Virus record (IMG/VR): IMGVR_UViG_3300042307_000516
Span: 1 to 44,657 of that record
DNA from: a virus
DNA length: 44,657 bases
Reading direction: 5' to 3' (one strand)
Made by a program: the position numbers and the translations under genes. Under the pieces are notes generated by a model. It saw only the letters and a program-made list of their open reading frames with translations, searched no databases and was not told where the DNA came from. How positions within the stretch are numbered: the first letter of the stretch is position 1; every line of letters starts with the position of its first letter. This document shows, piece by piece, positions 7 through 44,657 of this stretch.

Positions 7-271
7 GCTAGCCGATCCCTGCCTCACGTACTCAAAATTTCAATATCGGCAGTGTTTGCAGTGTCTATTGAATTGCTACGCATCACCGCGAGCGCTTTGG
101 GCACTGTCTATACCGCAATTTGGCAACATCGCATCACATTCCATTCATTCCCTTGATAGGTTTTACAATTTTTGCCATCTCAATGAGATTTATTAGGCCC
201 TGTGCGCCTCGTACGCGCCACGGCGATGCTCAGGGTATGAGATAACCCCGCTAGCATCTCAATGGCGCTAG
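7..271. repeat. Left copy of 265-bp imperfect direct repeat
   Basis: Aligns without gaps to 44393-44657 (offset 44386) with four differences, at 58, 69, 70 and 144. It holds no convincing gene. Read leftward it contains the upper part of a hairpin terminator, a 13-nt palindrome (177-189), an operator-like box (131-152), a -10 candidate (TATAGA on the minus strand, 112-107), a hairpin (72-39) and the GGCTAGC leader half (13-7). The six bases left of it (1-6) match the other SD leaders (TTATTGCTAGCC also at 1041 and 1610) and do not match the flank of the right copy. It may be a terminal repeat, a duplicated regulatory region or a variant-bearing circular overlap. Confidence 0.9.
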
Positions 272-276
272 CGGGG
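246..276 (-). terminator. Hairpin terminator after the 289-579 gene
   Basis: A perfect 10-bp stem (CCCCGCTAGC, 246-255, with GCTAGCGGGG, 267-276) closes an 11-nt loop. On the minus strand it starts 13 bases beyond the stop codon of the 289-579 gene and is followed by a weak TTATCTC stretch, so termination leftward is plausible but the U-tract is poor. Confidence 0.65.
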
Positions 277-288
277 CTCTCAGGGCTG

Positions 289-579
289 TTAGAGGTATAT
301 AGCCTCAGACTTGGCAATATCCCAAATACTGATTTGCTTGTGCTCCCTGCCTCGCTTCAGTGCTTCTTCTAGGTTGATTTCATAGGTCGTAACATCGTAG
401 TAACGCTGTCCGTCTTCTGGGTCGGTCCAGATGCCTATAAAGTTGCCTAGCTGTGCTTCGTCGGTGCTCTCAATGGATCGAATTCCTATCCAATAGCCGG
501 CAATAGGTGGCACGATGGTTTCAATGCCGGTAAGGCCAAGGATGTAGGTTCCATCTTCGATGCTCTCTAATTGGTTCAT
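289..579 (-). CDS. Hypothetical accessory protein (96 aa)
   Basis: An unrecognised small acidic protein with no obvious membrane segment or catalytic motif. It has alternating hydrophobic stretches such as YWIGIRSIES and IGIWTDPEDGQRYYDV that suggest a compact beta-rich domain. The ATG at 579 is preceded by a good SD (GAGAGGAAT), a leader hairpin at 599-617 and the repeated operator-like box at 651-672, and the gene is followed by a hairpin terminator at 246-276. It is therefore its own leftward transcription unit in the accessory region. Such separately promoted small genes in phages are often host-takeover or anti-defence genes, but nothing in this sequence proves that here. Confidence 0.75.
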   Translation of the reverse strand: MNQLESIEDGTYILGLTGIETIVPPIAGYWIGIRSIESTDEAQLGNFIGIWTDPEDGQRYYDVTTYEINLEEALKRGREHKQISIWDIAKSEAIYL

Positions 580-583
580 GTTT

Positions 584-672
584 ATTCCTCTCTAGATTGT
601 TAGCCGGTATGGCTAGCAATATTTACTTTACACTGTGCCAAGGCATCAGCGCATCACATTCCATTCATTCCC
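584..672 (-). promoter_or_regulatory. Repeated promoter/leader unit B
   Basis: Leftward order: operator-like box GGGAATGARTGGAATGTG (651-672), -10 candidate TAAAGT (630-625) at a distance that puts -35 over the box edge, leader hairpin GTTAGCC/GGCTAGC (599-605 with 611-617), then a CTAGAGAGG SD. The same arrangement recurs upstream of 1025, 1593 and, in part, at both ends of the window. Confidence 0.6.
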
Positions 673-736
673 TAGTTTAGAAAATTGTATTTTTGTAGAG
701 CCTTTTTTCGTCATGCTCAGGACGCTAGGGGATAGC

Positions 737-898
737 TTATTCGGCGGGTGGCCACTGTTCTAGGTTGGCCTCCCAGTCCCCGTTAGGGAACTCAGAGTGT
801 TGCTCAACAGCAAGGTCAATAGCATGGTCCTCATCTGTTGCCTTCACCCAATACGTGGCAGAATACTCAACCTGCCAATAGCGCAGATCCTCGCTCAT
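737..898 (-). CDS. Small hypothetical protein (53 aa)
   Basis: Read directly from the minus strand: ATG at 898 and TAA at 739-737, starting MSEDLRYWQVEYSATYWVKA and ending QWPPAE. It is rich in Trp and acidic residues. The pattern W-x-V-E-Y-S-A-T-Y-W-V-K-A-x-(D/E)-E-D-x-A resembles small phage proteins with a beta-beta-alpha fold, but no family is assigned. It follows the 41-aa gene after one intervening base (TGA-G-ATG), so the two are translationally coupled and share promoter unit C. The SD would lie in the upstream gene. No clear terminator follows it. Confidence 0.65.
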   Translation of the reverse strand: MSEDLRYWQVEYSATYWVKATDEDHAIDLAVEQHSEFPNGDWEANLEQWPPAE

Positions 899-1182: not shown

Positions 1183-1593
1183 TTAGCCTAGGAACTTAGC
1201 TACATTCTTGAGCAATGTCTGCCCAACTGTTTCCTCGTTGCTTAGCTCTAATAGGTTGATAGTAGCGGTAATCTCGCTGAGCTCATCCTTGCTCTTGACT
1301 CTCAGCGTAGTAGAACCCTGCCTGCCATGCTGAACATAGCTGTTAGGGTTAGTCGGCTCAACTGGCTTCTTGGAGGCATAAGTAGGGTCAATGTCTACCC
1401 TGAACTCATTGCCGTAGTTATTCCAGATTTTGACAATGTGCTTCTTTGCTCCCTCGGTGAACTTTTCAAGCTCAACCTTGTAGGTTTCGTAGTCGCTCAG
1501 TATCTTGGCTAATTCTGCCTCACGGCTAGCCTTGACCTCCTTGAGTCTGGCTACTAGTGCTAGGCGGTTTACCTTGATTGCTGTTGCTGTCAT
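1183..1593 (-). CDS. Coiled-coil hypothetical protein (136 aa)
   Basis: Unrecognised. The N-terminal half (about residues 5-55) is a charged helix with heptad-like spacing, including LALVARLKEVKASREAELAKIL. The middle is beta-like (YGNEFRVDIDPTY) and the C-terminal part (SEITATINLLELSNEETVG) is helical. The ATG at 1593 has SD GAGGGAGA and the conserved leader. It is transcribed alone, diverging from the regulator gene at 1768 and ended by the strong terminator at 1134-1174. It may be under control of that neighbouring regulator, by position only. Confidence 0.75.
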   Translation of the reverse strand: MTATAIKVNRLALVARLKEVKASREAELAKILSDYETYKVELEKFTEGAKKHIVKIWNNYGNEFRVDIDPTYASKKPVEPTNPNSYVQHGRQGSTTLRVKSKDELSEITATINLLELSNEETVGQTLLKNVAKFLG

Positions 1594-1598
1594 TTGTA

Positions 1599-1688
1599 TC
1601 TCCCTCTAGTTATTGCTAGCCCTGATTGGCTAACAGGTCTATCTAAACACGCATCTTGTCCCGCTGTCTACCTTTCCATTCATTCTCT
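1599..1688 (-). promoter_or_regulatory. Repeated promoter/leader unit D (degenerate box)
   Basis: The leader hairpin (GCTAGCC 1615-1621, GGCTAAC 1628-1634) and -10 TAGATA (1645-1640) match unit C closely. The box at about 1669-1688 keeps AGAATGAATGGAA but loses the second half. It lies back to back with the promoter of the regulator gene, so it is the natural place for autoregulation. Confidence 0.55.
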
Positions 1689-1736
1689 AGCATCGAATCT
1701 CTATACACTGCACTACAACTGTGTCTACTATGCATG

Positions 1737-1742
1737 TATAAT
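1737..1742 (+). promoter_or_regulatory. -10 element TATAAT for the regulator operon
   Basis: A consensus TATAAT 25 bases before the ATG at 1768, with SD AGGAGA at 1757-1762. No good -35 is visible at 16-18 bases, which fits a promoter that is activated or contacts an extended region. It drives the rightward 1768-3740 genes. Confidence 0.6.
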
Positions 1743-1767
1743 AAATAGGGAAAGATAGGAGACATAA

Positions 1768-2283
1768 ATGGCTAGAATTTCAGATCACCCAGTGAGACTT
1801 GCAAGGCTTAGATCGTCAATGACGCAAGCCGAGTTAGCAAAGCGAGCAGGCGTGCAAAGATCAGCCGTGACAGCGATAGAAGATGGACGTACTAAGAAAC
1901 CATCTGAAGCCGTGTTAGCCGTGCTTGCACAAGCTATAGGCATATCGCTGCCGGATCTAGAAGAAGACATAAAAACATGGCAAGCAAAACCATCCACCCC
2001 GGATGTGCGTCCTGCCGTGGCAAATCTAATGACCATACCGCCATACGTATTGGGACAGTACTACAAGTCTTTTGTACAGTGGCGCAAAGAAATCGCACCA
2101 TCCCCGACTGCGCTAGCATCGTTACTTAGGCTCAATGCAGCTGTAGTATCTCGCTACGAAGCCGGCGAATACAAACGTGGCATGCCAGAAGTGCTGTCAT
2201 CCAAGCTCCTTAAGTCCTTTGGGCCTTACGGATTAACAACCGAATACATACTAGAACTGGAGAAACTACCCGCACATGAGTGA
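1768..2283 (+). CDS. Tandem-HTH XRE-family transcriptional regulator
   Basis: 171 aa. Residues about 8-62 form a Cro/C1-type HTH: RLARLRSSMTQAELAKRAGV, then a recognition helix QRSAVTAIEDG and the usual LAVLAQAIGISLPDL tail. Residues about 100-150 look like a second HTH: QWRKEIAPSPTALASLLRLN then AAVVSRYEAGEYKRG. It is a likely phage repressor or early-late switch acting on DNA. It is first in its rightward operon and diverges from the unit-D promoter. Operators could be the repeated GGGAATGARTGGAATGTG boxes. No integrase is present, so a lysogeny role is uncertain. Confidence 0.85.
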   Translation: MARISDHPVRLARLRSSMTQAELAKRAGVQRSAVTAIEDGRTKKPSEAVLAVLAQAIGISLPDLEEDIKTWQAKPSTPDVRPAVANLMTIPPYVLGQYYKSFVQWRKEIAPSPTALASLLRLNAAVVSRYEAGEYKRGMPEVLSSKLLKSFGPYGLTTEYILELEKLPAHE

Positions 2284-2557
2284 ATTTAGCGAAGCATTAG
2301 ATAACAAATTTGTTGAAGCACAAGGTCTACTACTAAAAAAACACAAAGATTACGGACCGAAGAATATCTCCCAGAGTCCTGGTAGCCCTATTAACGGACT
2401 GCGAGTTCGCATGCATGACAAGCTGGCAAGGATCAACCACCTGTATGACAGTGGACAAGATCCAGCAAACGAAAGCTTTAGAGACAGCTTTATTGATCTA
2501 GCCAACTATGCCATCATCGGACTCATGGTGATTGATGGAGATTGGCCGAATGAGTAA
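2276..2557 (+). CDS. DUF1599/Nmad1-like protein
   Basis: 93 aa. It matches the short all-alpha domain described as DUF1599 or nucleotide-modification-associated domain 1: KKHKDYGPKNI near residues 21-31, then GLRVRMHDKLARI, and a C-terminal DSFIDLANYAIIGLM helix. The family is common in phages and is placed near nucleotide-modification enzymes in comparative work; its biochemistry is not settled, and no modification enzyme is recognised here. Its ATG overlaps the regulator's stop by 8 nt and its own TAA overlaps the next gene by 8 nt, so the three genes are co-translated. Confidence 0.75.
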   Translation: MSEFSEALDNKFVEAQGLLLKKHKDYGPKNISQSPGSPINGLRVRMHDKLARINHLYDSGQDPANESFRDSFIDLANYAIIGLMVIDGDWPNE

Positions 2558-3311
2558 TTCAGAAGACGTTCTGAATTTAGATTTATCTAAATTTGAATCT
2601 CGAATAGAGTCTGCTAAACCTACCAAGGAGCAGGCTCTATTCGAGCAAGTCTTAGCAGCTGCAGTGGCAGCAGATAGGCGGGGTTTCTTTGTTGAGACCC
2701 AGACTGTGATAGACCAAGATCAAAGATTAACCGAAGACAAAGTAGAATTGGTTTGGTCTACTACAAAGTTTCAGAAAGCGCTTGAGTCCCGTGGTATCAA
2801 GACGGTGGCGAATCCAAACCTAACGCTCCGGCAAGAGACGTTCCTGCAGGCTTATCTGAATCCGCTGAACCTAAAACCACCCCAGGTATTAGCTAAGCAG
2901 ATGAAGATCAGTCTGTCTGAGCTAGATGGCTGGATGCGCGATAAGCACTTCGCTGGCGCATTCTCTGCAAAGAGCGAAGACAACCTAAAGAAGTACCTAC
3001 CGATTGCAGATCAGGCTTTAGGGCAGTTAGTGCAATCTGGGGACATGAAAGCGATCACATTCCTAAACCAGCTGACCGGCAGGTTTGATCCAAACGCTCG
3101 GGCGAACCTGGATGTGCCAGCTTTGCTTATGCAGGTGCAAGATATCATTCTGCGCCATGTTAGAGACCCGATCACAAAGCGCAATATTGCTCGCGAGCTC
3201 GTTGCACTCGCCACAGGTAATTCACCGGCTACAGTAGTGCCAGAGCCCCAGGCAGATGATATACTAACTGTCGAGACAGTTATTGACATTACTGACGCAA
3301 AAAAGGAATAA
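2550..3311 (+). CDS. Putative terminase small subunit (phBC6A51-type HTH)
   Basis: 253 aa from the ATG at 2550; an upstream in-frame ATG at 2532 exists, but 2550 overlaps the previous stop (ATGAGTAA) and has GGAG upstream. The core about residues 92-160 (LTLRQETFLQAYLNP, then PPQVLAKQMKISLSELDGWM and a helical LPIADQALGQLVQSGDMKAITFLNQLTGRFDP) resembles the homeodomain-like small-terminase family that selects phage DNA for packaging. It is on the opposite strand from, and about 17 kb away from, the large terminase (20311-21846), which is unusual. It could instead be another DNA-binding regulator. Confidence 0.6.
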   Translation: MSNSEDVLNLDLSKFESRIESAKPTKEQALFEQVLAAAVAADRRGFFVETQTVIDQDQRLTEDKVELVWSTTKFQKALESRGIKTVANPNLTLRQETFLQAYLNPLNLKPPQVLAKQMKISLSELDGWMRDKHFAGAFSAKSEDNLKKYLPIADQALGQLVQSGDMKAITFLNQLTGRFDPNARANLDVPALLMQVQDIILRHVRDPITKRNIARELVALATGNSPATVVPEPQADDILTVETVIDITDAKKE

Positions 3312-3312
3312 C

Positions 3313-3489
3313 ATGTCTTCTACTCTTACATCTGAATTAGATCTATACAAAGCTGTACCAGGAACCGCAGAGCCTTTTAGGACTACTGACATTAACGCTA
3401 ACTGGGACAAGGTTGACGCTTTTGCTGTCGCTACCCTGGCTTTAATTGCTACCCCTACTGCATCTACCATTAACGGTGGAACTGCATAA
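3313..3489 (+). CDS. Short virion-associated-like protein (58 aa)
   Basis: The start at 3313 has SD AAGGA and lies one base after the preceding stop; the in-frame upstream start at 3283 lies inside that gene and is less likely. The pattern VPGTAEPFRTTDINANWDKVDAFA resembles the conserved 'P-x-x-EPF-x-x-(A/T)D-x-N-x-NWDKID' segment often found in phage tail-fibre or baseplate-associated proteins. It ends in a Thr-rich STINGGTA tail. The function is unknown. The TAA overlaps the next ATG (TAATG). Confidence 0.6.
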   Translation: MSSTLTSELDLYKAVPGTAEPFRTTDINANWDKVDAFAVATLALIATPTASTINGGTA

Positions 3490-3740
3490 TGTCATCGGAC
3501 GCCACTAACGGTGCCCACGTAAAAGTCACAATTAACGATCTTTACAAGGAACAGCAGGAAACCAACAAACTACTAATCCAGCTAGCCAGCGAGCTAAAAG
3601 GATTATCTGACATTCCTGACAGGGTGCGTGGCGTAGAGCTAGAAATAGCCAAATTACAGTGGATCGACATCATTGCTAAGACTGCCCTAGCTGGCGCTAT
3701 AGCTTCATTTATAGGCACTATTTTCTCCCTTTTGCGGTAG
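3489..3740 (+). CDS. XhlA-like membrane protein / putative holin component
   Basis: 83 aa. Residues about 13-55 are a charged coiled coil (INDLYKEQQETNKLLIQLAS and following) and residues about 60-82 form one hydrophobic segment ending in LLR. A coiled coil plus one C-terminal transmembrane helix is the plan of XhlA/hemolysin-type phage lysis proteins, which act at the inner membrane with a holin. The main lysis pair lies far away (31311-32209), so this may be a second lysis or membrane-anchoring protein. Family assignment is by architecture only. Confidence 0.55.
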   Translation: MSSDATNGAHVKVTINDLYKEQQETNKLLIQLASELKGLSDIPDRVRGVELEIAKLQWIDIIAKTALAGAIASFIGTIFSLLR

Positions 3741-12447: not shown

Positions 12448-14084
12448 TAACTTGTCCTGTCTGACGTCTTAGCTTTTGTTCCAATCATCGGAGTAATGCT
12501 AAATATCTGGGCTGGCGATGTATCAACTGTCCCGTCACAGTTTAAGTACAATTCAAAGTATACCCTACGGAAGCGTAGTCCGTGGTCCAGTTTAAGGCTT
12601 AGGCGCTGTTTGTAGGTGTATCCAGTGTCTACTAGGGTGGACACAAAGCTTGCTGTAGCCGTAGGGTTATCCCAAACACCATCTGCTTTATCCCATGTAA
12701 TAAACTCGGTGTCGCCCGCGCCCGAGTAATCCAAGGCATCCCAGCTTGCCTGTGTTGCTGATAGGGATACAGGGAAAGCTTTTGCTGTGACGGTACCAGA
12801 CGCCATTACGTCAGCGGCCCACCAGTACATTCTTTTCCATTCGGTGGGGGATTGGAAGTCATAGATTTTAGTACGCAAAATACACTCAATAGTTTCAGGA
12901 TCACTATCATCGTGTGTGTGATCAATCATTTTGTACATTTTCCATTTTGCAGCAGTTGCGCTAGCTGAAACACCATAGGCAAACTTAGCTTCGCCAATGT
13001 TATTTGCCTGAGTCGGGACCTGTACTAATCTACCGATTTCAGTGCTTGATTTCCAAGTTGACCATGTTCCGGTTTTAAGCTGGGCAACATAAATCGAACC
13101 ACCGTAATTAACTATTGCTCGAGAACCAAGTATTGATACCGAGTAACGGATCTTTAAGTTCTGAGACCCGGCAGCTTCTTCAAACCTAACTTTTTGATCG
13201 TTTAAGGATGTGAAGTTTCCATTGTTGTAAAGGTATAGCTGATCAGCACTAAGTACAAAAAGGCTGTTCTCGTAACGTGCTATACAGTATTGGTTTTCAG
13301 CTCCAATACCGTCCTGCACTTTAGCAATGACTCCTTCTTCTGGAAGCTCGCTAAATGTGTATCTAAACGTTGAGGCGTTTCTAAAAATTGTAATGTCGTT
13401 GTATCCAGCAACTAGACCAGTGATCCATTGGCCATCTCCGCCATTTACGGAAACTAGGTTGGTTGCAGATTCCCACCAGCGCCAGTCCTTACCAGGGAAT
13501 CCGTCTATTTCTCCCGAGATGTTTGACCAGTACATGATTGATTGAGAAGCGCTGTCTAGTGGGCCAAACAAGAATAAGCGTTCTTGGTGTAGCTCGATAC
13601 CCCTACCGGCTGGCATGGTTGCAATTGTAGAAGTGTTTGATCCCGTTACGGTCCAAAGCCCAGTACCGGCGTTATATCCTGGCGCTCCGTTGGCGTTCCA
13701 GTACGCACCTGCACCGTTGATACGGCACATAATTACATAGTCTTGATACTGCACAAAGTCAGCTGCAGGAAAATTCCAAATCTCAGTCCAAGTGCTAGCC
13801 AAGTTCCAAACGTATGTTTTAGTAGGAGATACAACTATTGCGGATCGCGTACCATTTTGAGACACGTAGTAACCGAGAATGTTAAAGAATGTGTTGGCTT
13901 CAGGGAAGGTTGTACCCGTGTCAAATATAGAAGGCCTAGAGGACAAAGCACCAGTTGGCGAAAATTCTAGGTTCTGCAGGAATGGAACTTCTGTCTCAGC
14001 AATAGCCGAAGGATCCCAGAAGTTGTTTAGACCTCCGGAGAAGTTATTTAGTACGGCAGAGCGTTCCCGTACTATATCAGACAT
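12447..14084 (-). CDS. P22 gp10-like tail hub / head-stabilisation protein
   Basis: 545 aa, beta-rich throughout. The N-terminal motif LNNFSGGLNNFWDPSAIAETEVPFLQNLEF matches the 'GG(L/I)N-x-x-x-(D/N)P-x-x-(I/L)-x-x-x-(E/Q)' start of podoviral tail hub and stabilisation proteins, and repeated Trp/Tyr-rich strands (YVWNLASTWTEIWNF; LFVLSADQLYLYNNGNFTSL) suggest a propeller-like fold. It would plug the portal below the adaptor. The start overlaps the adaptor gene's end by 8 nt (ATGTCTGA). The gene is about 70 residues longer than P22 gp10 as I remember it. Confidence 0.7.
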   Translation of the reverse strand: MSDIVRERSAVLNNFSGGLNNFWDPSAIAETEVPFLQNLEFSPTGALSSRPSIFDTGTTFPEANTFFNILGYYVSQNGTRSAIVVSPTKTYVWNLASTWTEIWNFPAADFVQYQDYVIMCRINGAGAYWNANGAPGYNAGTGLWTVTGSNTSTIATMPAGRGIELHQERLFLFGPLDSASQSIMYWSNISGEIDGFPGKDWRWWESATNLVSVNGGDGQWITGLVAGYNDITIFRNASTFRYTFSELPEEGVIAKVQDGIGAENQYCIARYENSLFVLSADQLYLYNNGNFTSLNDQKVRFEEAAGSQNLKIRYSVSILGSRAIVNYGGSIYVAQLKTGTWSTWKSSTEIGRLVQVPTQANNIGEAKFAYGVSASATAAKWKMYKMIDHTHDDSDPETIECILRTKIYDFQSPTEWKRMYWWAADVMASGTVTAKAFPVSLSATQASWDALDYSGAGDTEFITWDKADGVWDNPTATASFVSTLVDTGYTYKQRLSLKLDHGLRFRRVYFELYLNCDGTVDTSPAQIFSITPMIGTKAKTSDRTS

Positions 14085-22302: not shown

Positions 22303-22567
22303 TGGGTTTTTCAGGCGGTACACAACTAACATATCAGGAACTTAAGGATCTTCACCTTAATTCTGATGTTGACGAAAACCCGCTTGCTTACCATCATACA
22401 CTAGGTCCGTTGGCTGGGCAGGCTAGCCCCGGAGATCACGTGCATGATGGTAAGACATCTAAGAGAATAAGTTTTTCTGATATTGAAGGCGGCTTGTGGA
22501 ATATCGACGGCGGTATTCCTAGCACAATTTATACGCCGATCCCAGTTTGGGACGGTGGAGGAGTCTA

Positions 22568-22568
<1 letters not shown>
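22302..22568 (+). CDS. First tail-block protein, likely leaderless (88 aa)
   Basis: Unrecognised. It begins [20 protein letters not shown] and has a [20 protein letters not shown] segment, the 'HTLG-x-x-x-x-QA-x-x-GDH-x-HDG' pattern often seen in phage tail-fibre and virion proteins. No SD precedes the ATG, but a -10 ends eight bases before it, so a leaderless transcript is likely. The longer in-frame start at 22245 would overlap the resolvase start and lacks support. TAATG junction with the collagen-like fibre. Confidence 0.65.
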
Positions 22569-24399
<1,831 letters not shown>

Positions 24400-24403
<4 letters not shown>

Positions 24404-26310: not shown

Positions 26311-28095
26311 ATGCCCATTGACTTTCCATCTGGTCCAACCACTGGTCAGCTATACACCTACCAAGGTAAATATTGGGTCTACAATGGCGCTGCTTGGGAT
26401 GCCGTTAGCTACAGTAGCGCAGAATTTCCTGTTAGTTTTCTTGTAATTGGCGGTGGAGGTGGTGGTGGTCAACACTACGGCGGTTTTGTTGCTGGCGGTG
26501 GTGCTGGTGCTGGTGGATACAGAACTAACTTTGGCGCATCGGGCGGTAACTCCGCTGCTGAATCATCAATTGTTGTTAACCCAGGCAAAAGCTACCCAGT
26601 AATTGTTGGTGCTGGTGGCGCTCAAAACACTAACGGTGCGAATAGCAGGTTTTCTACTGTTTTGTCGTACGGTGGAGGTAAGGGCGCGAGTACAGCTGCC
26701 ATAAACCAACAACCTGGAGTTGGTGGATCTGGTGGTGGAGGGCAAGGTGCTACTTATTCTGCCATAAATGGTTTCGGTATTCCCTTTCAAGGTGTAAATG
26801 GTTCTATTGGATACGTTAATACTGGTATGAATCAAGGCGGTGCTGGTGGCGGTGGTGGCGCTAGCGGCAATGGTAGCGCTGCTGGTTTGGCTGGTGGTGG
26901 AACTGGCGGTGCTGGACTAGCTAGCACAATTACAGGTACTTCTATAACTCGTGCTGGTGGTGGTGGCGGTGGAGCTGGAAATAACGCTACTTTTGCTGCT
27001 GGTGGTGCTGGTGGCGGTGGAAATGGTGGCGCAACAAGTAGTGGCGTTACAACTGCTGGGACTGTCAATACTGGTAGTGGTGGTGGTGGTGGTGGTTCTA
27101 ATACTGGAGCTGTTGGTTCTTTCAGCAACGGTGGTGCTGGCGGTTCTGGTGTTGTGATACTTCGGTATCCAAATACCTATGTTGCCGCTCTTGGCCCTGG
27201 ATTGGCGGGTGCAACTTCTATTAGTGGAAATGACGCAATAACGCAAATAACCTCTGGCGCTGGAGACATTGCTTGGGGATTTGCAGGTCAAATTTATTCG
27301 GCTACATACTTGCTTGTCGCTGGTGGAGGTGGTGGTGGTGCTGGTGCTGGTGGAGGTGGAGGAGCTGGAGGTTATTTAACAGGTTCAGCGGACTTCTTCC
27401 TTGGCTCTAATCACACAATCACAGTTGGTGCTGGTGGTGTGGGAACAGGCAGCCTTGCTCAAAGCTATTCACAGCCTGGTAGCGGCGGAAACTCTGTATT
27501 TGGTAACCTAATCGCTATTGGTGGTGGTACTCCTGGAGACCAAAACTGGGTAGCTACTGTTGGTGGCTCTGGTGGTGGTGGTGGTGGTGGTACTAACGCA
27601 CCTACACAACAGGTAGCTGCCGCTGGTACATCTGGTCAGGGTAATGCTGGAGCAAATGGTATTCAGAATAACCGAGGTGGTGGTGGTGGTGGTTCAAGCG
27701 CTGCTGGTAGCGTTCTTACTGGCGGTAATGGAACAAGTAACTCTATAACTGGGGCTGCCGTTATTTACGCTGGTGGAGGTGGCGCTGGTGGTTATTCAAC
27801 TTCAGGTAACGGCGGTACTGGAGGTGGCGGTAATGGCACTGCAGGTTCTTCTGTTCGTGGTGGCAACGGAACTGCTAATACGGGCGGTGGCGGTGGCGGT
27901 GGCGGTGGCGTTGGCGCACCTAGTTTTGCTACTGCTGGTGGTGGTACAGGTGGGTCTGGTATTGCAATTCTTAGCTACCCATCGAACCTTACACTTTCAA
28001 TTGGCGCAGGCTTGACAGCTACAACAGCAACAGTTGGAGCAAACAAGGTGACAACATTTACCGCTGGAACTGGCACCGTAAGCTGGGCAATCTAA
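26311..28095 (+). CDS. Double-module glycine-rich adhesin
   Basis: 594 aa. Residues 1-35 form an attachment motif (MPIDFPSGPTTGQLYTYQGK, YWVYNGAAWDAVS). Two full glycine-rich modules follow. Each begins with F-L-V-(I/A)-GGGGGGG, runs through Gly-dense repeats and ends with a beta cap: GGSGVVILRYPNTYVAALGP...GAGDIAW (about 270-325), and GGSGIAILSYPSNLTLSIGA...GTGTVSW (about 545-594). Gly-rich tracts of this type form polyglycine-II sandwiches in known phage adhesins such as gp38 of phage S16. Probably a cell-surface receptor-binding protein. GGT repeats may recombine with the paralogous genes downstream. Confidence 0.8.
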   Translation: MPIDFPSGPTTGQLYTYQGKYWVYNGAAWDAVSYSSAEFPVSFLVIGGGGGGGQHYGGFVAGGGAGAGGYRTNFGASGGNSAAESSIVVNPGKSYPVIVGAGGAQNTNGANSRFSTVLSYGGGKGASTAAINQQPGVGGSGGGGQGATYSAINGFGIPFQGVNGSIGYVNTGMNQGGAGGGGGASGNGSAAGLAGGGTGGAGLASTITGTSITRAGGGGGGAGNNATFAAGGAGGGGNGGATSSGVTTAGTVNTGSGGGGGGSNTGAVGSFSNGGAGGSGVVILRYPNTYVAALGPGLAGATSISGNDAITQITSGAGDIAWGFAGQIYSATYLLVAGGGGGGAGAGGGGGAGGYLTGSADFFLGSNHTITVGAGGVGTGSLAQSYSQPGSGGNSVFGNLIAIGGGTPGDQNWVATVGGSGGGGGGGTNAPTQQVAAAGTSGQGNAGANGIQNNRGGGGGGSSAAGSVLTGGNGTSNSITGAAVIYAGGGGAGGYSTSGNGGTGGGGNGTAGSSVRGGNGTANTGGGGGGGGGVGAPSFATAGGGTGGSGIAILSYPSNLTLSIGAGLTATTATVGANKVTTFTAGTGTVSWAI

Positions 28096-28119
28096 TGACA
28101 CATTATAAGTTAGGTACGG

Positions 28120-28125
28120 TACAAT
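28120..28125 (+). promoter_or_regulatory. -10 (TACAAT) of a likely leaderless transcript
   Basis: TACAAT ends seven bases before the A of the ATG at 28132, the standard spacing from a -10 to the transcription start. No SD is present between them. This is a second case like 22289-22302. Confidence 0.45.
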
Positions 28126-28131
28126 AAGATC

Positions 28132-28296
28132 ATGCCAGCTATTGATTTCCCAAACTCCCCCACAGTAGGCCAACTATTTACAGTTGGTGACATTACTTGG
28201 GAATGGACTGGTACCCTCTGGAAGGGCTTTACGGGATACACAACCGCTAATTCACCAGACGCAAATGCGCAAATATTTACATTGATGGGAGCATAA
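28132..28296 (+). CDS. Stand-alone fibre attachment domain (54 aa)
   Basis: Read directly: ATG at 28132, TAA at 28294-28296. MPAIDFPNSPTVGQLFTVGD then ITWEWTGTLWKGFT closely parallels residues 1-35 of the 26311-28095 adhesin (MPIDFPSGPTTGQLYTYQGK, YWVYNGAAWDAV). It therefore looks like the adhesin's N-terminal domain as a separate gene, either functional on its own or the remnant of a lost adhesin. One intervening base separates it from the next ATG at 28298. Confidence 0.7.
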   Translation: MPAIDFPNSPTVGQLFTVGDITWEWTGTLWKGFTGYTTANSPDANAQIFTLMGA

Positions 28297-28297
28297 C

Positions 28298-28630
28298 ATG
28301 CCAACAACTTACAAGGTACTAGGCCAGTCTGCGCCATCCGCGACTACTAACACAGACTTATACACAGTGCCTGCCGCGACTAGCGCAGTCGTCTCTACAA
28401 TTGTTATTGCCAATAGGGTAGGGACAGATGCAACTTTTCGTATTGCGATTAGGCCAGCTGGGGCAGCCGTAGCCAACCAACATTACATTGCATATGACGT
28501 ACTTGTTGGAGCAGGAGACTCAACTACCTTGACCCTAGGTATAACTTTAGCTGCTACGGACATTATTACTGTTTATGCTTCTACTGCAAACCTTAGCTTT
28601 AACGTATTTGGCTCTGAAATAACGAGCTAG
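28298..28630 (+). CDS. Virion-associated beta-sandwich-like protein (110 aa)
   Basis: Starts MPTTYKVLGQSAPSATTNTD and contains LYTVPAATSAVVSTIVIANR, then ATFRIAIRPAGAAVANQHYI, and a Thr-rich end. The 'LYTVPA-x-x-x-x-V-x-S-x-x-(I/V)-x-N' opening is characteristic of a small conserved phage tail/virion protein seen in many aquatic phages. It is probably Ig-like and exposed on the virion. No catalytic feature. Confidence 0.7.
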   Translation: MPTTYKVLGQSAPSATTNTDLYTVPAATSAVVSTIVIANRVGTDATFRIAIRPAGAAVANQHYIAYDVLVGAGDSTTLTLGITLAATDIITVYASTANLSFNVFGSEITS

Positions 28631-28632
28631 TT

Positions 28633-29538
28633 ATGGGAGTTCAACTTTTGCTAAGCTCAGGCTTACAAAATTATCAAAGACAAAGAAACATGAAGAGACC
28701 TCTTCGTCCCCTGAAAGTTGAATACCTTGTAGTTGCTGGCGGTGGAGGTGGAGCTGGTGATGCTCAGGCTTCAGGTGGAGGTGGAGGTGGAGGGCTACTT
28801 GCAGGTTTTCAGACCCTAGCTACAGGCTTAAATCTTTCCGTAGCTGTGGGAGCTGGAGGACCAGTCTCAGGCTCCGCAAGCGCATCAAAGGGGGGCTCTT
28901 CAACATTTAATCTTGCCGTCGCTCAAGGCGGTGGAGGTGGTGGTCCAGGCCTTAACGCTGCAATTTCAAGTTGCGCAGGTGGTTCTGGTGGCTCTGGTGG
29001 TGGAGGAGGAACAACTAACCAAAACGGAACAACCTCGGCAGGAGCTGCAGTATCGGGGCAAGGATTTTCTGGTGGAACAGGAAACGGTTCGGGAGGAAAC
29101 GAAAGACATTCAGGTGGTGGTGGTGGAGCTGGGGCTGCTGGGCAAAACGCAACAACTACCAAAGCTGGTAACGGTGGAAACGGTCTTTCAAGCTCTATAA
29201 CTGGAGCTGCAACATTTTATGCTGGTGGTGGTGGTGGTGGTGGAAAACTAGCCGCTGGAACAGGTGGACTTGGAGGAGGAGGAAACGGTGGGGCTGGAAC
29301 AGGCGCTAACGGAACTGCTGGAACTGCTAATACTGGTGGTGGTGGAGGACAAGGATTTAATGACGCAGCTCCAGCAACTGGCAATTTTAGAGCTGGTGGA
29401 TCTGGCGTTGTAATACTTCGCTACCCGTCTGTTTACACGATTACAATTGGCGCTGGACTTACTGGTTCAACAGCAAGCGTTGGTTCTGATAGAGTTACAA
29501 CAATCACTGCTGGCACAGGAAATGTCAGCTGGGCATAG
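28633..29538 (+). CDS. Single-module glycine-rich adhesin (301 aa)
   Basis: After a short basic N-terminus (QNYQRQRNMKRPLRPLKVEY), residues 32-40 are VVAGGGGGA, then Gly-dense repeats rich in GGGGGA, GNGGNG and TGGLGG, closed by GGSGVVILRYPSVYTITIGA and GTGNVSWA. The cap is nearly the same as in 26311-28095 and 30471-31247. It lacks the ID-FP attachment domain, which is instead encoded separately at 28132. The start at 28633 follows the previous stop after two bases; a later ATG at 28690 is possible. Confidence 0.75.
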   Translation: MGVQLLLSSGLQNYQRQRNMKRPLRPLKVEYLVVAGGGGGAGDAQASGGGGGGGLLAGFQTLATGLNLSVAVGAGGPVSGSASASKGGSSTFNLAVAQGGGGGGPGLNAAISSCAGGSGGSGGGGGTTNQNGTTSAGAAVSGQGFSGGTGNGSGGNERHSGGGGGAGAAGQNATTTKAGNGGNGLSSSITGAATFYAGGGGGGGKLAAGTGGLGGGGNGGAGTGANGTAGTANTGGGGGQGFNDAAPATGNFRAGGSGVVILRYPSVYTITIGAGLTGSTASVGSDRVTTITAGTGNVSWA

Positions 29539-29550
29539 ATAGGAAAAATA

Positions 29551-29910
29551 ATGGCACATTACGCATTTATAAATGAAAACAACGTTGTCACTGAGGTGAT
29601 CGTTGGTATTGACGAAACTGAGCTTATTGAAGGATTAGATACCGAGACTTGGTATGGCAACTTCAGAGGTCAGACATGTAAGCGCACTTCTTACAACGGT
29701 AACTACCGTAAGAACTACGCTGGTATTGGCTTCACTTACGATGAAAATCGCGATGCTTTTATCGCACCAAAACCTTTTGAGTCTTGGGTGCTAGATGAAG
29801 AAACTTGTCTATGGGAAGCCCCGGTTGCTTACCCTAATGACGGCGAAAGCTATTTTTGGGATGAAGAAGCTGAAGGCTGGGCCCTAATCGAGTCTGAATC
29901 TGCGCTATAA
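29551..29910 (+). CDS. Conserved aquatic-phage virion protein (119 aa)
   Basis: Starts MAHYAFINENNVVTEVIVGI and contains CKRTSYNGNYRKNYAGIGFT, YDENRDAFIAPKPFESWVLD, then TCLWEAPVAYPNDGESYFWD. This is a very characteristic sequence common in cyanophages and other aquatic phages, usually next to tail-fibre genes. Its role is unproven; a structural or host-interaction protein is likely. SD AGGAAAAA. It lies 12 bases after the second glycine-rich adhesin. Confidence 0.8.
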   Translation: MAHYAFINENNVVTEVIVGIDETELIEGLDTETWYGNFRGQTCKRTSYNGNYRKNYAGIGFTYDENRDAFIAPKPFESWVLDEETCLWEAPVAYPNDGESYFWDEEAEGWALIESESAL

Positions 29911-29911
29911 T
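29906..29911 (+). promoter_or_regulatory. Possible -10 (TATAAT) before 29947
   Basis: A consensus TATAAT overlapping the stop of the preceding gene, 35 bases before the ATG at 29947 (SD CAGGAG). No clear -35. A chance match cannot be excluded. Confidence 0.35.
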
Positions 29912-29946
29912 AAGCTTTAGATCAACGCCCAACACAGGAGCATTTA

Positions 29947-30471
29947 ATGCCTAGAGTAAATCAAATTCAAGTACGCAGGGATAGTGCTGCTAACTGGACT
30001 TCAGTCAACCCGACCCTTGCTGCTGGCGAAATTGGTTTTGAGACCAACGTTGGCGCTATCAAGCTTGGAGACGGAACTACTGCTTGGACGTCACTGCCTT
30101 ACTTAAGAGCAACTGAGCCTGCTGGAAACGCTGATGCAGCTAAGACTACTGGCTACGTTGGTATGCCTCAGGTAATTCTAAACACTGGAAACCTTACACT
30201 TAGCAAGGCTCATGCTGGAAAGCACATTTACGTAACTGGTGCAAGCCAGACAATTACAATCCCGGCTAACGGATCAGTGCCTTTTGAAATTGGTACAACA
30301 ATTGTTATTGTAAATGGAAACCTTACTAGCTCAATTGCGATCACTAGCGACACACTTAGACTTGCTGGCACGGCAAACACTGGCGCAAGAACCCTTAACG
30401 CAAATGGTATTGCCACACTTATAAAAATCGAAGCGACTACTTGGATAATTTCAGGTAACGGACTCATCTAA
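29947..30471 (+). CDS. Short tail fibre with Mtd-N-like head (174 aa)
   Basis: Residues 1-55 (VNQIQVRRDSAANWTSVNPT, LAAGEIGFETNVGAIKLGDG, TAWTSLPYL) are a close paralogue of the first 50 residues of the collagen-like fibre at 22568. The rest is a beta-helix/sandwich-like Thr/Ile-rich region (HIYVTGASQTITIPANGSVP, AITSDTLRLAGTANTGARTL). Probably a second fibre using the same docking site. TAATG junction with the third adhesin. Confidence 0.75.
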   Translation: MPRVNQIQVRRDSAANWTSVNPTLAAGEIGFETNVGAIKLGDGTTAWTSLPYLRATEPAGNADAAKTTGYVGMPQVILNTGNLTLSKAHAGKHIYVTGASQTITIPANGSVPFEIGTTIVIVNGNLTSSIAITSDTLRLAGTANTGARTLNANGIATLIKIEATTWIISGNGLI

Positions 30472-31247
30472 TGTCTGGCGTTTTAGGCGGACTGCTTGGA
30501 TCTTTTAGAGGTATCTTAACTGTTCAATCGCTGGTTATTGCTGGTGGAGGCGGTGGTGGTACCGCCGTTGGAGCATATACCAACACCGGAACTGGTGCTG
30601 GTGGAGCTGGTGGTTATCGCGACGTTACCAGTGACAATTTTCAAATAAGCCTAGATTATTTAGTAACCATTGGCGCTGGTGGTCCTGCAGCAGCAGGCGG
30701 TAATTCAACCTTTAGTTCCATTACTTCCATTGGTGGTGGTGCAGGTGGAGTACCAAGCGCCCCTAATGGAAACCCTGGTGGTTCCGGTGGTGGTGGTGGT
30801 TATCACGCATTTGGTACAAGTGCCGGAGGTAGCGGGACAGCGGGACAAGGGTTTGAGGGTGGAAGTAGAAACGGCGACGCCAGCGGTGGAGGTGGTGGCT
30901 CTGGGGGCGCTGGAGGAAGCGGAAGCGGTAATACACCTGGGGCTGGAGGAATAGGTACTGCTAGCTCAATTACTGGTAGTCCAGTTACAAGAGCAAAAGG
31001 TGGTGCTGGAGCTTACGGTGGCACTCCAACTGTAACTGGTGGTGAAAACACTGGAGATGGTGGAGGCGGTGGAGTAAATAACATTAGATCATCTGGATAC
31101 GGTGGTTCTGGTGTCGTAATTTTGCGTTACCCAAACTCATATACGATAACGATTGGAGCTGGTTTGTCCGCTGATCCAACAATAAATGTTGGCTCCGACA
31201 AGGTTACAAGGATTACACAGGGCACTGGAAACATAAGATTTAGTTAA
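30471..31247 (+). CDS. Single-module glycine-rich adhesin (258 aa)
   Basis: Opening: LLGSFRGILTVQSLVIAGGG; Gly-dense middle; closing cap GGSGVVILRYPNSYTITIGA with DKVTRITQGTGNIRFS. It is the fourth glycine-rich module of the region. It lacks the attachment domain but is translationally coupled to the short Mtd-N fibre, which may supply docking. The central repeats differ from the other copies, consistent with receptor diversification. Confidence 0.75.
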   Translation: MSGVLGGLLGSFRGILTVQSLVIAGGGGGGTAVGAYTNTGTGAGGAGGYRDVTSDNFQISLDYLVTIGAGGPAAAGGNSTFSSITSIGGGAGGVPSAPNGNPGGSGGGGGYHAFGTSAGGSGTAGQGFEGGSRNGDASGGGGGSGGAGGSGSGNTPGAGGIGTASSITGSPVTRAKGGAGAYGGTPTVTGGENTGDGGGGGVNNIRSSGYGGSGVVILRYPNSYTITIGAGLSADPTINVGSDKVTRITQGTGNIRFS

Positions 31248-36648: not shown

Positions 36649-37275
36649 CTAGAAGGTCAAGACGTTTTGTACTGCAGTAACTGATACACCGAGGTTCTCG
36701 GCAATCTCTTCTGCAGTGAAACCATTAGACTGCAATGTCTCAGCGACCTTGGTCTGCTTTGCATCTAGTGTTTCAACTTTACCACCCTTTACTGGCGTTG
36801 CGCCAGATGCAAGGAGGGCATCAACTGCTGAGTTTGACTTAGCAGCTGATAGCTCAATGCCGTAAAGCTTCACGTCATTGTAGCGAGGGTTCTTTGCAGG
36901 CTTGGTGCCAACTAGCGTGATCTTAAAGTTAGATCCGATCTCTAGCTTGGTCAAGCCCTTACGCTTTAGTTCTTCTTTCGCGGCTGTCAACTTCTGACCA
37001 AATAGGAATACACGGCGCTCGCCAGTATCCTCATCATCTGTTGCATCCTTGTAATCGGTGTCAAGTGTGACCTCGATCTGCAGCTTAGGCTTGCCGTCGT
37101 CCCAGAATTCTAGCTTGGTTGGGTCGTCGTAGTTGCGTACCTGTACTGTGCGAAGGCCAATGATGGTTCCTTCGTATGAGTCTCCAACATTAAAATCCTT
37201 AAAGGATAGTGACTTGGAGCCACCGCCGGCTAGTAAATCATCGACGGTAGGTAGTGCCTCGTTGAATTCATTCAT
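36649..37275 (-). CDS. ssDNA-binding-like protein with C-terminal HTH
   Basis: 208 aa. The core about 20-130 is OB-fold-like: NVGDSYEGTIIGLRTVQVRN, WDDGKPKLQIEVTLDTDYKD, GERRVFLFGQKL, then GSNFKITLVGTKPAKNPRYN. This plan is common in actinophage genes placed beside a Cas4-like nuclease and usually taken to bind ssDNA. The last 40 residues look like an HTH (VAETLQSNGFTAEEIAENLG then VSVTAVQNVLTF). Role in replication or recombination is inferred from neighbours. SD AAGGAAA. Confidence 0.65.
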   Translation of the reverse strand: MNEFNEALPTVDDLLAGGGSKSLSFKDFNVGDSYEGTIIGLRTVQVRNYDDPTKLEFWDDGKPKLQIEVTLDTDYKDATDDEDTGERRVFLFGQKLTAAKEELKRKGLTKLEIGSNFKITLVGTKPAKNPRYNDVKLYGIELSAAKSNSAVDALLASGATPVKGGKVETLDAKQTKVAETLQSNGFTAEEIAENLGVSVTAVQNVLTF

Positions 37276-42328: not shown

Positions 42329-42933
42329 TAGTCCAACTTACTTGGTGGCACTTCGCCGACCGGTAGCTCGATGATCTCTTGGTCAGTGATCTCATGGCCT
42401 CTGACTTGTGCTACTGCCTTGCGCATCGCGAAAGTAATGCTAGGCCAGAATCTTAGGGGATCCTCAGCTCGCATCTTATAGAATGCAGACTTAGGGTAGA
42501 GCTCATCCAGATCTTCTCCGGTGCTAAGTTTCCATAGCTCAACCTGCCACTTGCGCGTGTCTCCATATGGATCTTTCCATCCAGATTGATCAGTGAACCA
42601 TGTATACCATTTTGTCCATGAGTTGCGCGTGGTGATCTTCGAGAGCTCATCTAGGTACTCCTTGCGCTGGCCAACTGCAGACTCGTTTACTAGGGGTGTC
42701 GCGATAGACTCAGGGCCTCCGATATATTCCCATTCACTGCCTCCGTTGATCTCAATGTAGGCGTCGACGTCAGACTTGCGATACCAACTCGTGCCTCCCT
42801 GTCGAACGAATTTGATCGGGGATGTCTCCGGTTTGGTCCTCTGGTTGCGAAGCTGGTTCATGGTGAAGCCGGTCAGATCCGAGACTTCTCTCGATGTCAA
42901 AAGCTCACCGTATTTGGGGTGATAGGTGCTCAA
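42328..42933 (-). CDS. MerR/AlpA-like HTH protein (201 aa)
   Basis: TTG start at 42933 with SD AAGGAGA. Residues about 8-58 are a winged HTH of the excisionase/AlpA type: GELLTSREVSDLTGFTMNQL, then KFVRQGGTSWYRKSDVDAYI. The rest (about 80-200) is an uncharacterised Trp-rich helical part (WTKWYTWFTDQSGWKDPYGD). No integrase is present, so regulation or replication initiation is more likely than excision. It is first in its transcription unit after the 245-base region with inverted repeats. Confidence 0.7.
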   Translation of the reverse strand: MSTYHPKYGELLTSREVSDLTGFTMNQLRNQRTKPETSPIKFVRQGGTSWYRKSDVDAYIEINGGSEWEYIGGPESIATPLVNESAVGQRKEYLDELSKITTRNSWTKWYTWFTDQSGWKDPYGDTRKWQVELWKLSTGEDLDELYPKSAFYKMRAEDPLRFWPSITFAMRKAVAQVRGHEITDQEIIELPVGEVPPSKLD

Positions 42934-43178
42934 TGTGTCTCCTTGTAGTAGGTAAGTAGATTGTATTACAGATCTACAGAATGATTATGATTTTGTCAGT
43001 TTAGCTGTTTTTTGTATTTTGTGTGAAATTTTTTGGGGTGTTTTGGCCTTTAGTTTTCTCAAAACACCGTTTTCCAATTGATCTCCTAAGAAAGACACTT
43101 ACTACTTACTAATCTACTACTTAGCCGATTAGTAAGTAGTAAGTGTCCGTATAGGGATGCTGGTTGGATTTGCATTAT
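42934..43178. other. AT-rich intergenic region with two inverted repeats
   Basis: No gene is seen. It contains the promoter region of the 42933 gene (TACAAT and TAATAC in the TGTAATACAAT run, minus strand), an AT-rich stretch (42980-43080), a 9-bp inverted repeat (GGTGTTTTG 43037-43045 with CAAAACACC 43060-43068), and the 21-bp perfect inverted repeat at 43094-43147. GTAAGTAG-type words recur at about 42949 and 43132. It is a reasonable candidate for a control region or replication origin. Confidence 0.5.
43094..43147 (-). terminator. 21-bp perfect inverted repeat after the 43179 gene
   Basis: Arms 43094-43114 and 43127-43147 are fully complementary, with a 12-nt loop (TACTACTTAGCC). On the minus strand it follows the 43179 stop by 31 bases and is followed by TTTCTTAGG, so it can act as a terminator; being AT-rich and repeat-built (ACTTACTACTTACT) it could equally be an operator or origin element. 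Confidence 0.6.
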
Positions 43179-43592
43179 TTATCCGTAGACGATCTCTCCG
43201 AATAGGCCAACTTGAATGATCACGTCGAGAGCTTCGTCGTCTATGTATCCATAATCAAGTCCCTCAGCAAGGTCCTGAGCAATACTCCTCCGGATCGCTT
43301 CGTTGACTTGTGTAGCTCCGTTCAATACGCGTTCAATGCCTTCGATAATCGTATTGACGGTGATCAGGTACCAAAGATCATCCACTAGGACTTCAAATTG
43401 GTACCAGTTGCGGTGCCCAGACTCATCCGGTAATCCGCGTTTTGCGTTTCTACTCGCCTCGGCCCAGTAGGCAATAGCGCCTCCATCGTAAGCGGTATCA
43501 ACAAGGCTGATCAAGCTGGATACCCTGACTCCCTGTCTGATCTTCAATGCCACTGTATCGGTTGGGAATAGTACTGTTTGTGCTGTTTGCAT
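43179..43592 (-). CDS. Early hypothetical protein (137 aa)
   Basis: The start at 43592 (MQTAQTVLFPTDTVALKIRQ) has SD AGAAGG and a TAATG junction; a TTG at 43622 would add ten residues inside the 36-aa gene. AIAYWAEASRNAKRGLPDES, WYQFEVLVDDLWYLITVNTI and AIRRSIAQDLAEGLDYGYID look like a compact alpha/beta protein of the kind found in actinophage early regions. No catalytic motif recognised. Last gene before the 21-bp inverted repeat. Confidence 0.7.
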   Translation of the reverse strand: MQTAQTVLFPTDTVALKIRQGVRVSSLISLVDTAYDGGAIAYWAEASRNAKRGLPDESGHRNWYQFEVLVDDLWYLITVNTIIEGIERVLNGATQVNEAIRRSIAQDLAEGLDYGYIDDEALDVIIQVGLFGEIVYG

Positions 43593-43702
43593 TAGTTGCC
43601 TTCTTTCTTTATGTAGCTCCAAATTACTAGGGATGTGAATAGCGCCAGTAGTGTGAATAGTGCTGTTATGGTAATTGAATAGATAATTAGAATTAGCTCC
43701 AT
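43592..43702 (-). CDS. Single-span membrane micro-protein (36 aa)
   Basis: Read directly: ATG at 43702 and TAA at 43594-43592, both shared as TAATG with the flanking genes. MELILIIYSITITALFTLLA then LFTSLVIWSYIKKEGN: about 27 hydrophobic residues and a basic C-terminus, a classic small transmembrane protein with the tail in the cytoplasm. Perfect coupling at both ends argues that it is translated. It may act on the host membrane, for example in superinfection exclusion, by analogy only. Confidence 0.7.
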   Translation of the reverse strand: MELILIIYSITITALFTLLALFTSLVIWSYIKKEGN

Positions 43703-43986
43703 TAGCATTCCTCTTCTTCAGTAATCCAAGCGTCCAAGTGGTGCGCTTCGATCAGGTTGCGAGCTGGTGCGGTGGTGTTGCCTCTCCAACTGATCCCTTC
43801 AGGCAGATCGATCTCACGTGCAAGATCATCTTCCCAATAGGCATCTATGGCTTCGATGCAAGGCCGGACCATGCTTAGTGGTACCGGTGGATAATGATTA
43901 CTTCTCAGGTGAATCGCTAGTTGATCTTCTAGGGTAATTGTGCCTAGTGTGCCATCAGCTAGTTCGTGCGCGAAATTGCTTCCCAT
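43702..43986 (-). CDS. Early hypothetical protein (94 aa)
   Basis: Unrecognised. LEDQLAIHLRSNHYPPVPLS, then CIEAIDAYWEDDLAREIDLP, then WRGNTTAPARNLIEAHHLDA. The combination 'NHYPPVP...CIEAIDA...G-x-x-W(R)-x-x-x-APA' is a recognisable small protein of actinobacteriophages without known function. TAATG junctions on both sides; SD AGGAGGC lies in the upstream gene. Confidence 0.7.
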   Translation of the reverse strand: MGSNFAHELADGTLGTITLEDQLAIHLRSNHYPPVPLSMVRPCIEAIDAYWEDDLAREIDLPEGISWRGNTTAPARNLIEAHHLDAWITEEEEC

Positions 43987-44276
43987 TAGTTTGCCTCCTC
44001 TGTGTTGTATAGCTCCGCATGTGCGCGGGTTGCTAGATCGTAGTAGTAATTGAATAGATCGATACCCATTAGGGAATAGATCGTTGAGTCAGGCGCGACT
44101 CCGTAATCCTGCCAAGTATCTTTGTACTCAGCATCTAGATCGGTCCACTCCTGAACGATCTCACTGTAATAGATCGGGACTAGACCATCTGCATATTGGT
44201 GCAGATCGTCCTCAGGGTAATCGTGTCCTTGAAAGGGTGCTAGACCCTCCTTGATATCTTCGTAGCTAGTTAGCAT
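43986..44276 (-). CDS. First gene of the early operon (96 aa)
   Basis: Unrecognised acidic protein: YEDIKEGLAPFQGHDYPEDD, YSEIVQEWTDLDAEYKDTWQ, then IDLFNYYYDLATRAHAELYN. It has a strong SD (AGAGGAGA) and the leader hairpin 44296-44319, under the promoter 44328-44356. Tyr/Asp-rich and strongly negative, so a DNA-mimic or antirestriction role is imaginable but not supported by a motif. Confidence 0.7.
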   Translation of the reverse strand: MLTSYEDIKEGLAPFQGHDYPEDDLHQYADGLVPIYYSEIVQEWTDLDAEYKDTWQDYGVAPDSTIYSLMGIDLFNYYYDLATRAHAELYNTEEAN

Positions 44277-44295
44277 TCTTATCTCCTCTATTTGC

Positions 44296-44319
44296 TTAGC
44301 TGGCGGGGTTGCTAGCTAA
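44296..44319 (-). promoter_or_regulatory. Leader hairpin of the early operon
   Basis: TTAGCT (44296-44301) pairs with AGCTAA (44314-44319) just upstream of the SD. It resembles the TAGCC/GGCTA leader hairpins of units B-D in place and partly in sequence, though the loop is GC-rich here. Confidence 0.45.
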
Positions 44320-44326
44320 TAAGTTC

Positions 44327-44356
44327 ACTCTAATAGTCGGTTAGTCGATTAGTCAA
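44327..44356 (-). promoter_or_regulatory. Early leftward promoter
   Basis: Minus-strand -35 TTGACT (44356-44351), 18-base spacer, -10 TAGAGT (44332-44327). The spacer contains tandem 8-mers GGTTAGTC and GATTAGTC (44339-44354 on the plus strand), which may be operators. It is placed to drive 44276 to 43179. Confidence 0.6.
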
Positions 44357-44392
44357 GCATATTTTTATAACGGTTTGATAACGGTATTTTAG
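44357..44392. other. Short AT-rich link between early promoter and right repeat
   Basis: No gene. AT-rich, with near-repeat words AACGGTTTGATAACGGTATTTT. With the repeat it makes a gene-free stretch of about 380 bases from 44277 to the window end. Confidence 0.5.
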
Positions 44393-44657
44393 GCTAGCCG
44401 ATCCCTGCCTCACGTACTCAAAATTTCAATATCGGCAGTGTTTTCAGTGTCTATCAAATTGCTACGCATCACCGCGAGCGCTTTGGGCACTGTCTATACC
44501 GCAATTTGGCAACATCGCATCACATTCCACTCATTCCCTTGATAGGTTTTACAATTTTTGCCATCTCAATGAGATTTATTAGGCCCTGTGCGCCTCGTAC
44601 GCGCCACGGCGATGCTCAGGGTATGAGATAACCCCGCTAGCATCTCAATGGCGCTAG
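44393..44657. repeat. Right copy of 265-bp imperfect direct repeat
   Basis: Matches 7-271 with four substitutions and no indels. The window ends inside the hairpin terminator that is complete at 246-276 in the left copy. To its left lies a strong-looking leftward promoter (44328-44356) instead of the SD-type leader seen left of the first copy. Confidence 0.9.

Follow-up and report, generated by a model that had tools for sequence, protein, structure and literature searches.

The near-repeat at the two ends of a 44,657-nucleotide phage contig is most likely an assembly overlap between strain alleles of a circularly mapping genome

The viral contig analysed here (the window, 44,657 nucleotides; IMG/VR record IMGVR_UViG_3300042307_000516) begins and ends with almost the same sequence. 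This raises the question of whether its ends are true termini, separate copies of a regulatory region, a junction of phage variants, or the two sides of a break in a circular map. The initial annotation had reported that positions 7–271 and 44393–44657 align without gaps and with four substitutions, and alignment confirmed this: the 265-base match (E = 2e-132, hence not chance) contains substitutions at 58 (G/T), 69 (T/C), 70 (G/A) and 144 (T/C). The sequences to the left of the two copies had been described as non-matching. These flanks, TTTATT at the left end and TTTTAG at the right, have their first three bases (TTT) in common; the alignment therefore continues ungapped to base 1, and the supposed mismatch consists of three further substitutions. 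The overlap extends over 1–271 and 44387–44657 with seven substitutions (4, 5, 6, 58, 69, 70 and 144), starting at the first base of the contig and ending at its last. The window almost certainly goes once round an actinophage-like genome that maps as a circle of ∼44,386 bp (44,657 minus 271), its ends carrying the alleles of two strains at a single intergenic region. The features of the overlap are as follows.

1–271, no strand: left copy of the end overlap, read as strain allele 1; gap-free with 44387–44657, seven substitutions
4–6, no strand: the 'flank mismatch', three substitutions (ATT in the left copy, TAG in the right)
145–271, no strand: exact 127-base word, the longest common to the two ends; presumed assembler k-mer vertex at which the two alleles merge
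44387–44657, no strand: right copy of the end overlap, read as strain allele 2; same alignment, reaching the last base of the contig
44531–44657, no strand: second occurrence of the 127-base word, at the contig end; identical to 145–271

The longest exact word common to both ends is 127 bases long (145–271 and 44531–44657) and runs up to the contig's final position. Given four to seven differences per ∼270 bases, an exact run of just this length has a chance of ∼0.1–0.2%. The value equals an assembler k-mer length and is the same in six relatives with exact end overlaps. We infer an assembly step at k = 127 and the presence of two strains in the sample. The end overlap is most likely an ordinary assembly effect rather than a new kind of genome end.

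When the window is closed into a circle, the order at the junction becomes gene B (minus strand), one block, gene A (minus strand), with the following elements.

43986–44276, minus strand: gene B, 96 aa, left neighbour of the block; weak match to the ocr-like anti-restriction family phrog_2568 (E = 1e-5)
44277–44392, minus strand: promoter and leader region of gene B, with TTGACT-18-TAGAGT hexamers (read by eye) and the SD sequence AGAGGAG
246–276, minus strand: terminator hairpin following gene A (CCCCGCTAGC...GCTAGCGGGG); the sequence spanning the closed junction folds at −30.2 kcal/mol
289–579, minus strand: gene A, 96 aa; adjoins the block on its right once the circle is closed

At 44657 the right copy is cut off partway through the gene A terminator hairpin, which is whole at 246–276. 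The same arrangement is present in relatives, which join the genes lying at the two ends of the window. Each of the five relatives with the 265-base block (G001, G021, G022, G023 and G024; 89–94% identical) has one copy of it, and the promoter/leader region of gene B is kept beside it in each. In G021–G024 the block (91–94% identical) is bordered on one side by a homologue of gene B (82–94% identical) and on the other, in the position of A, by a gene that is 97% identical to gene A in G023, 69% in G022 and G024, and 35% in G021; the corresponding gene in G001 is 64% identical. A pattern search with the junction sequence matched exactly these four A/B-bridging contigs, which are partial sequences of 8–24 kb (G021, 23,688 bp; G022, 22,229 bp; G023, 7,929 bp; G024, 8,863 bp). 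G001 is near-complete (42,951 bp) and has the single block in its interior, at 13189–13452, flanked on one side by the A homologue and on the other by the same promoter region; another gene stands at the place of gene B there, with the promoter region kept. The closest relatives are 6–9% away in the block, so none of the records showing the closed junction comes from the same strain. In the collection of cultured phages, the end region had no DNA match beyond 185 bases at 69%; an Rfam search of the window gave no match and ARAGORN found no tRNA in it.

The presence of one block in all five relatives, joining the end-flanking genes in four of them, speaks against two of the readings put forward in the initial annotation, namely true imperfect terminal repeats and a duplicated regulatory region in a genome that extends further. 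That the block is a genuine second copy in this strain, with a longer or terminally redundant genome, copies 2.6% diverged and an unseen gene to the left of base 1, is very unlikely.

The disputed flank can be followed in the same relatives. To the left of the block, all five read ...ATAACGGTTTGATAACGGTATTT, then a variable site (TAG in G022, G023 and G024; ATC in G021; CA, shorter by one base, in G001), and then GCTAGCC. The ATT of the window's left copy is one base from the ATC of G021, and the TAG of its right copy is that of G022–G024. By this comparison, the disputed bases 4–6 are polymorphic and lie where the promoter region of gene B ends. The flank mismatch had been raised against a simple circular overlap; the argument fails because the mismatch amounts to three substitutions, and relatives vary at this site too. 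Most of the sites at which the two copies differ are polymorphic among relatives. The left copy agrees with G021 at positions 4, 5, 69 and 70, the right copy agrees with G022–G024 at 4–6 and 69, and all four bridging relatives have G at 58, like the left copy, and C at 144, like the right. Judged from these sequences, the two ends behave as two haplotypes of one locus.

The left flank had also been taken to continue a leader word, TTATTGCTAGCC, as if another SD-led leftward gene lay before position 1. The word does occur at 2, 1041 and 1610, and to that extent the observation stands; the likeness is short, however, and it breaks down at base 1, where the leader copies read GTTATTGCTAGCC and the left end reads TTTATTGCTAGCC. 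Where the leaders (1041 and 1610) have G before the word, the left end has T, as do the four A/B-bridging relatives. An extra SD-led gene to the left of base 1 was rejected as a candidate and is not needed, the near-identical flank of G021 (TTTATC) leading to an ordinary promoter region and gene B.

The resemblance to the leader word, together with related leaders and a 21-base box that recur before several leftward genes, would fit a duplicated regulatory region, in which the left copy comes from another locus, a leftward gene lies beyond base 1 and the genome is longer than the window. Paralogous leader copies, however, share only ∼30–110 bases, compared with 271 bases at 97% for the two ends; the first base is the T found at the relatives' B promoter rather than the G of the leaders; and the block occurs once in every relative carrying it. 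Neither the start-to-end overlap nor the exact 127-base run is predicted by such a duplication, which we regard as highly improbable.

A wider view of contig ends was obtained from 20 near-full-length relatives in the IMG/VR clade, found via the terminase and 41.4–46.0 kb in length, bracketing 44.4 kb. Exact end overlaps of 127 bases are present in six of the 20 (G006, G009, G010, G011, G014 and G017), and four more have exact overlaps of other lengths (69 bases in G002, 114 in G003, and 123 in G004 and G016). Imperfect start-to-end overlaps like that of the window are found in another four (G005, G007, G008 and G013). The overlap of G007 covers 1002 bp at 83.7% identity, with an exact run of 127 at the contig end; that of G013 covers 734 bp at 93.3%, with exact runs of 127 and 126 at the contig ends; that of G008 covers 147 bp with one mismatch and an exact run of 126 at the contig end; and that of G005 is a mosaic of ∼1.4 kb with indels. 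The window belongs to this series of genomes with imperfect or k-length end overlaps.

The mappable ends of the relatives fall in the capsid gene (G002, G007 and G013), at ∼14 kb (G006), in the portal–terminase region (G011, G012 and G014), at ∼33–34 kb (G003 and G018), at ∼1.6–1.7 kb (G008) and at ∼3.4 kb (G004), the repressor region being among the sites. No common terminus was found among these mappable ends; the breakpoints are scattered, which argues that there is no fixed terminus. Terminal repeats of T7-like phages are known in a size range that includes ∼270 bp, and those regenerated from concatemers remain identical. Fixed direct terminal repeats of ∼270 bp in a T7-like linear virion genome, with slightly diverged copies, would accord with this size and with a direct repeat that touches both contig ends exactly. 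Against them stand the seven differences between the copies in 271 bases, the internal and single block of the five relatives, the scattered ends and the exact 127-base run, which such repeats do not predict; this possibility is therefore considered even more remote than a duplication.

The scattered ends fit a circular map and would be compatible with permuted virion DNA or with ends elsewhere. The virion DNA could be circularly permuted; alternatively, it could be linear, with its ends at other sites, and form circles or concatemers inside the cell.

The two end copies are different alleles, to which at least two strains contributed, and this would fit a chimeric contig with arms from distantly related phages joined at shared sequence. 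Such a chimera is next to impossible, since G021 and G023 each carry both arms (G023, a 7.9-kb contig, is homologous at 89–93% to window 7–877, 1593–3701, 42587–43611 and 43984–44657, and G021 likewise has stretches homologous to both), so that the arms belong together in one phage lineage. The earlier idea of a junction of two phage variants came nearest among the three readings proposed at the time, with the correction that both variants belong to a single phage, being two of its strains at one and the same locus on a circular map.

The strain-variant overlap of a circular map probably arose as follows. The metagenome would contain at least two near-identical strains of the phage, in which the A–B intergenic region exists as two alleles that give two branches in the k = 127 graph of the assembler. 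The contig would begin on one branch (1–144), circle once, enter the other branch (44387–44530) and halt where the two rejoin, at the 127-base vertex (145–271 = 44531–44657). Neither a missing gene nor a fixed terminal repeat needs to be assumed.

Assemblers are reported to break circular templates at random places and to leave a repeat of k-mer length (CheckV; PMC8116208, Extended Data Fig. 3). The window resembles these k-mer-length 'direct terminal repeats' in having a repeat at contig start and end, an exact part equal to an odd k (127) and scattered breakpoints among its relatives; it differs in that its overlap runs 144 bases further with seven differences, an imperfection due to the two strain alleles at the break. 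Within-population variation is among the causes of contig breaks described for COBRA (PMC10914622), where the assembly graph divides over polymorphic sequence and a shared vertex of length maxK ends the contig, as proposed here. Unlike those breaks, the window has both sides of the break on one contig, because the genome maps as a circle. A paper search on strain heterogeneity combined with overlapping ends gave no hits.

The genome is probably complete and can be closed at ∼44.4 kb. The relevance of this result lies in curation: a test that demands an exact repeat from base 1 would call the record linear. With imperfect overlaps in four of the 20 relatives, exact-repeat tests undercount complete genomes in strain-rich samples.

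The closest known genomes are those of the uncultivated IMG/VR clade (G001–G024), which resemble the window in their portal, capsid and terminase genes and in genome size (41–46 kb). Cultured phages of Arthrobacter, Microbacterium and Cellulosimicrobium (Jasmine, Shocker and DS1) are remote, with one structural protein 26–30% identical, and differ from the clade in giving no longer match to the end region than that stated above. Several rightward proteins encoded in 22547–24403 and 26311–31247 contain collagen-like G-X-Y repeats and long glycine-rich tracts and are probably tail or fibre proteins. The 208-aa protein encoded at 36649–37275 (minus strand) matches HTH and sigma-70 region 4/ECF sigma families weakly, with scores below the cutoff.

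Several non-coding elements accompany the leftward genes. The 21-base box GGGAATGAnTGGAATGTGATG lies on the minus strand in intergenic stretches before leftward small genes, starting at ∼152, 672, 1118 and 44538. At two sites it precedes the start codon by ∼93 bases, and in several cases TATAAT- or TAGAnT-like hexamers follow ∼20 bases downstream of it. The box is present in nine IMG/VR contigs and may act as an operator or as an activator site at promoters in this clade of phages. The leaders of two leftward genes (1022–1081 and 1590–1650) are near-identical, with GGCTAGCAATAACTAGAGG before the start codon and 90% identity over 61 bases, and this leader is also found in G021 and G023. A near-perfect inverted repeat at 43094–43147, with 26-base arms and a 2-base spacer, is located between leftward genes and kept in relatives; it is perhaps a terminator or a replication element.
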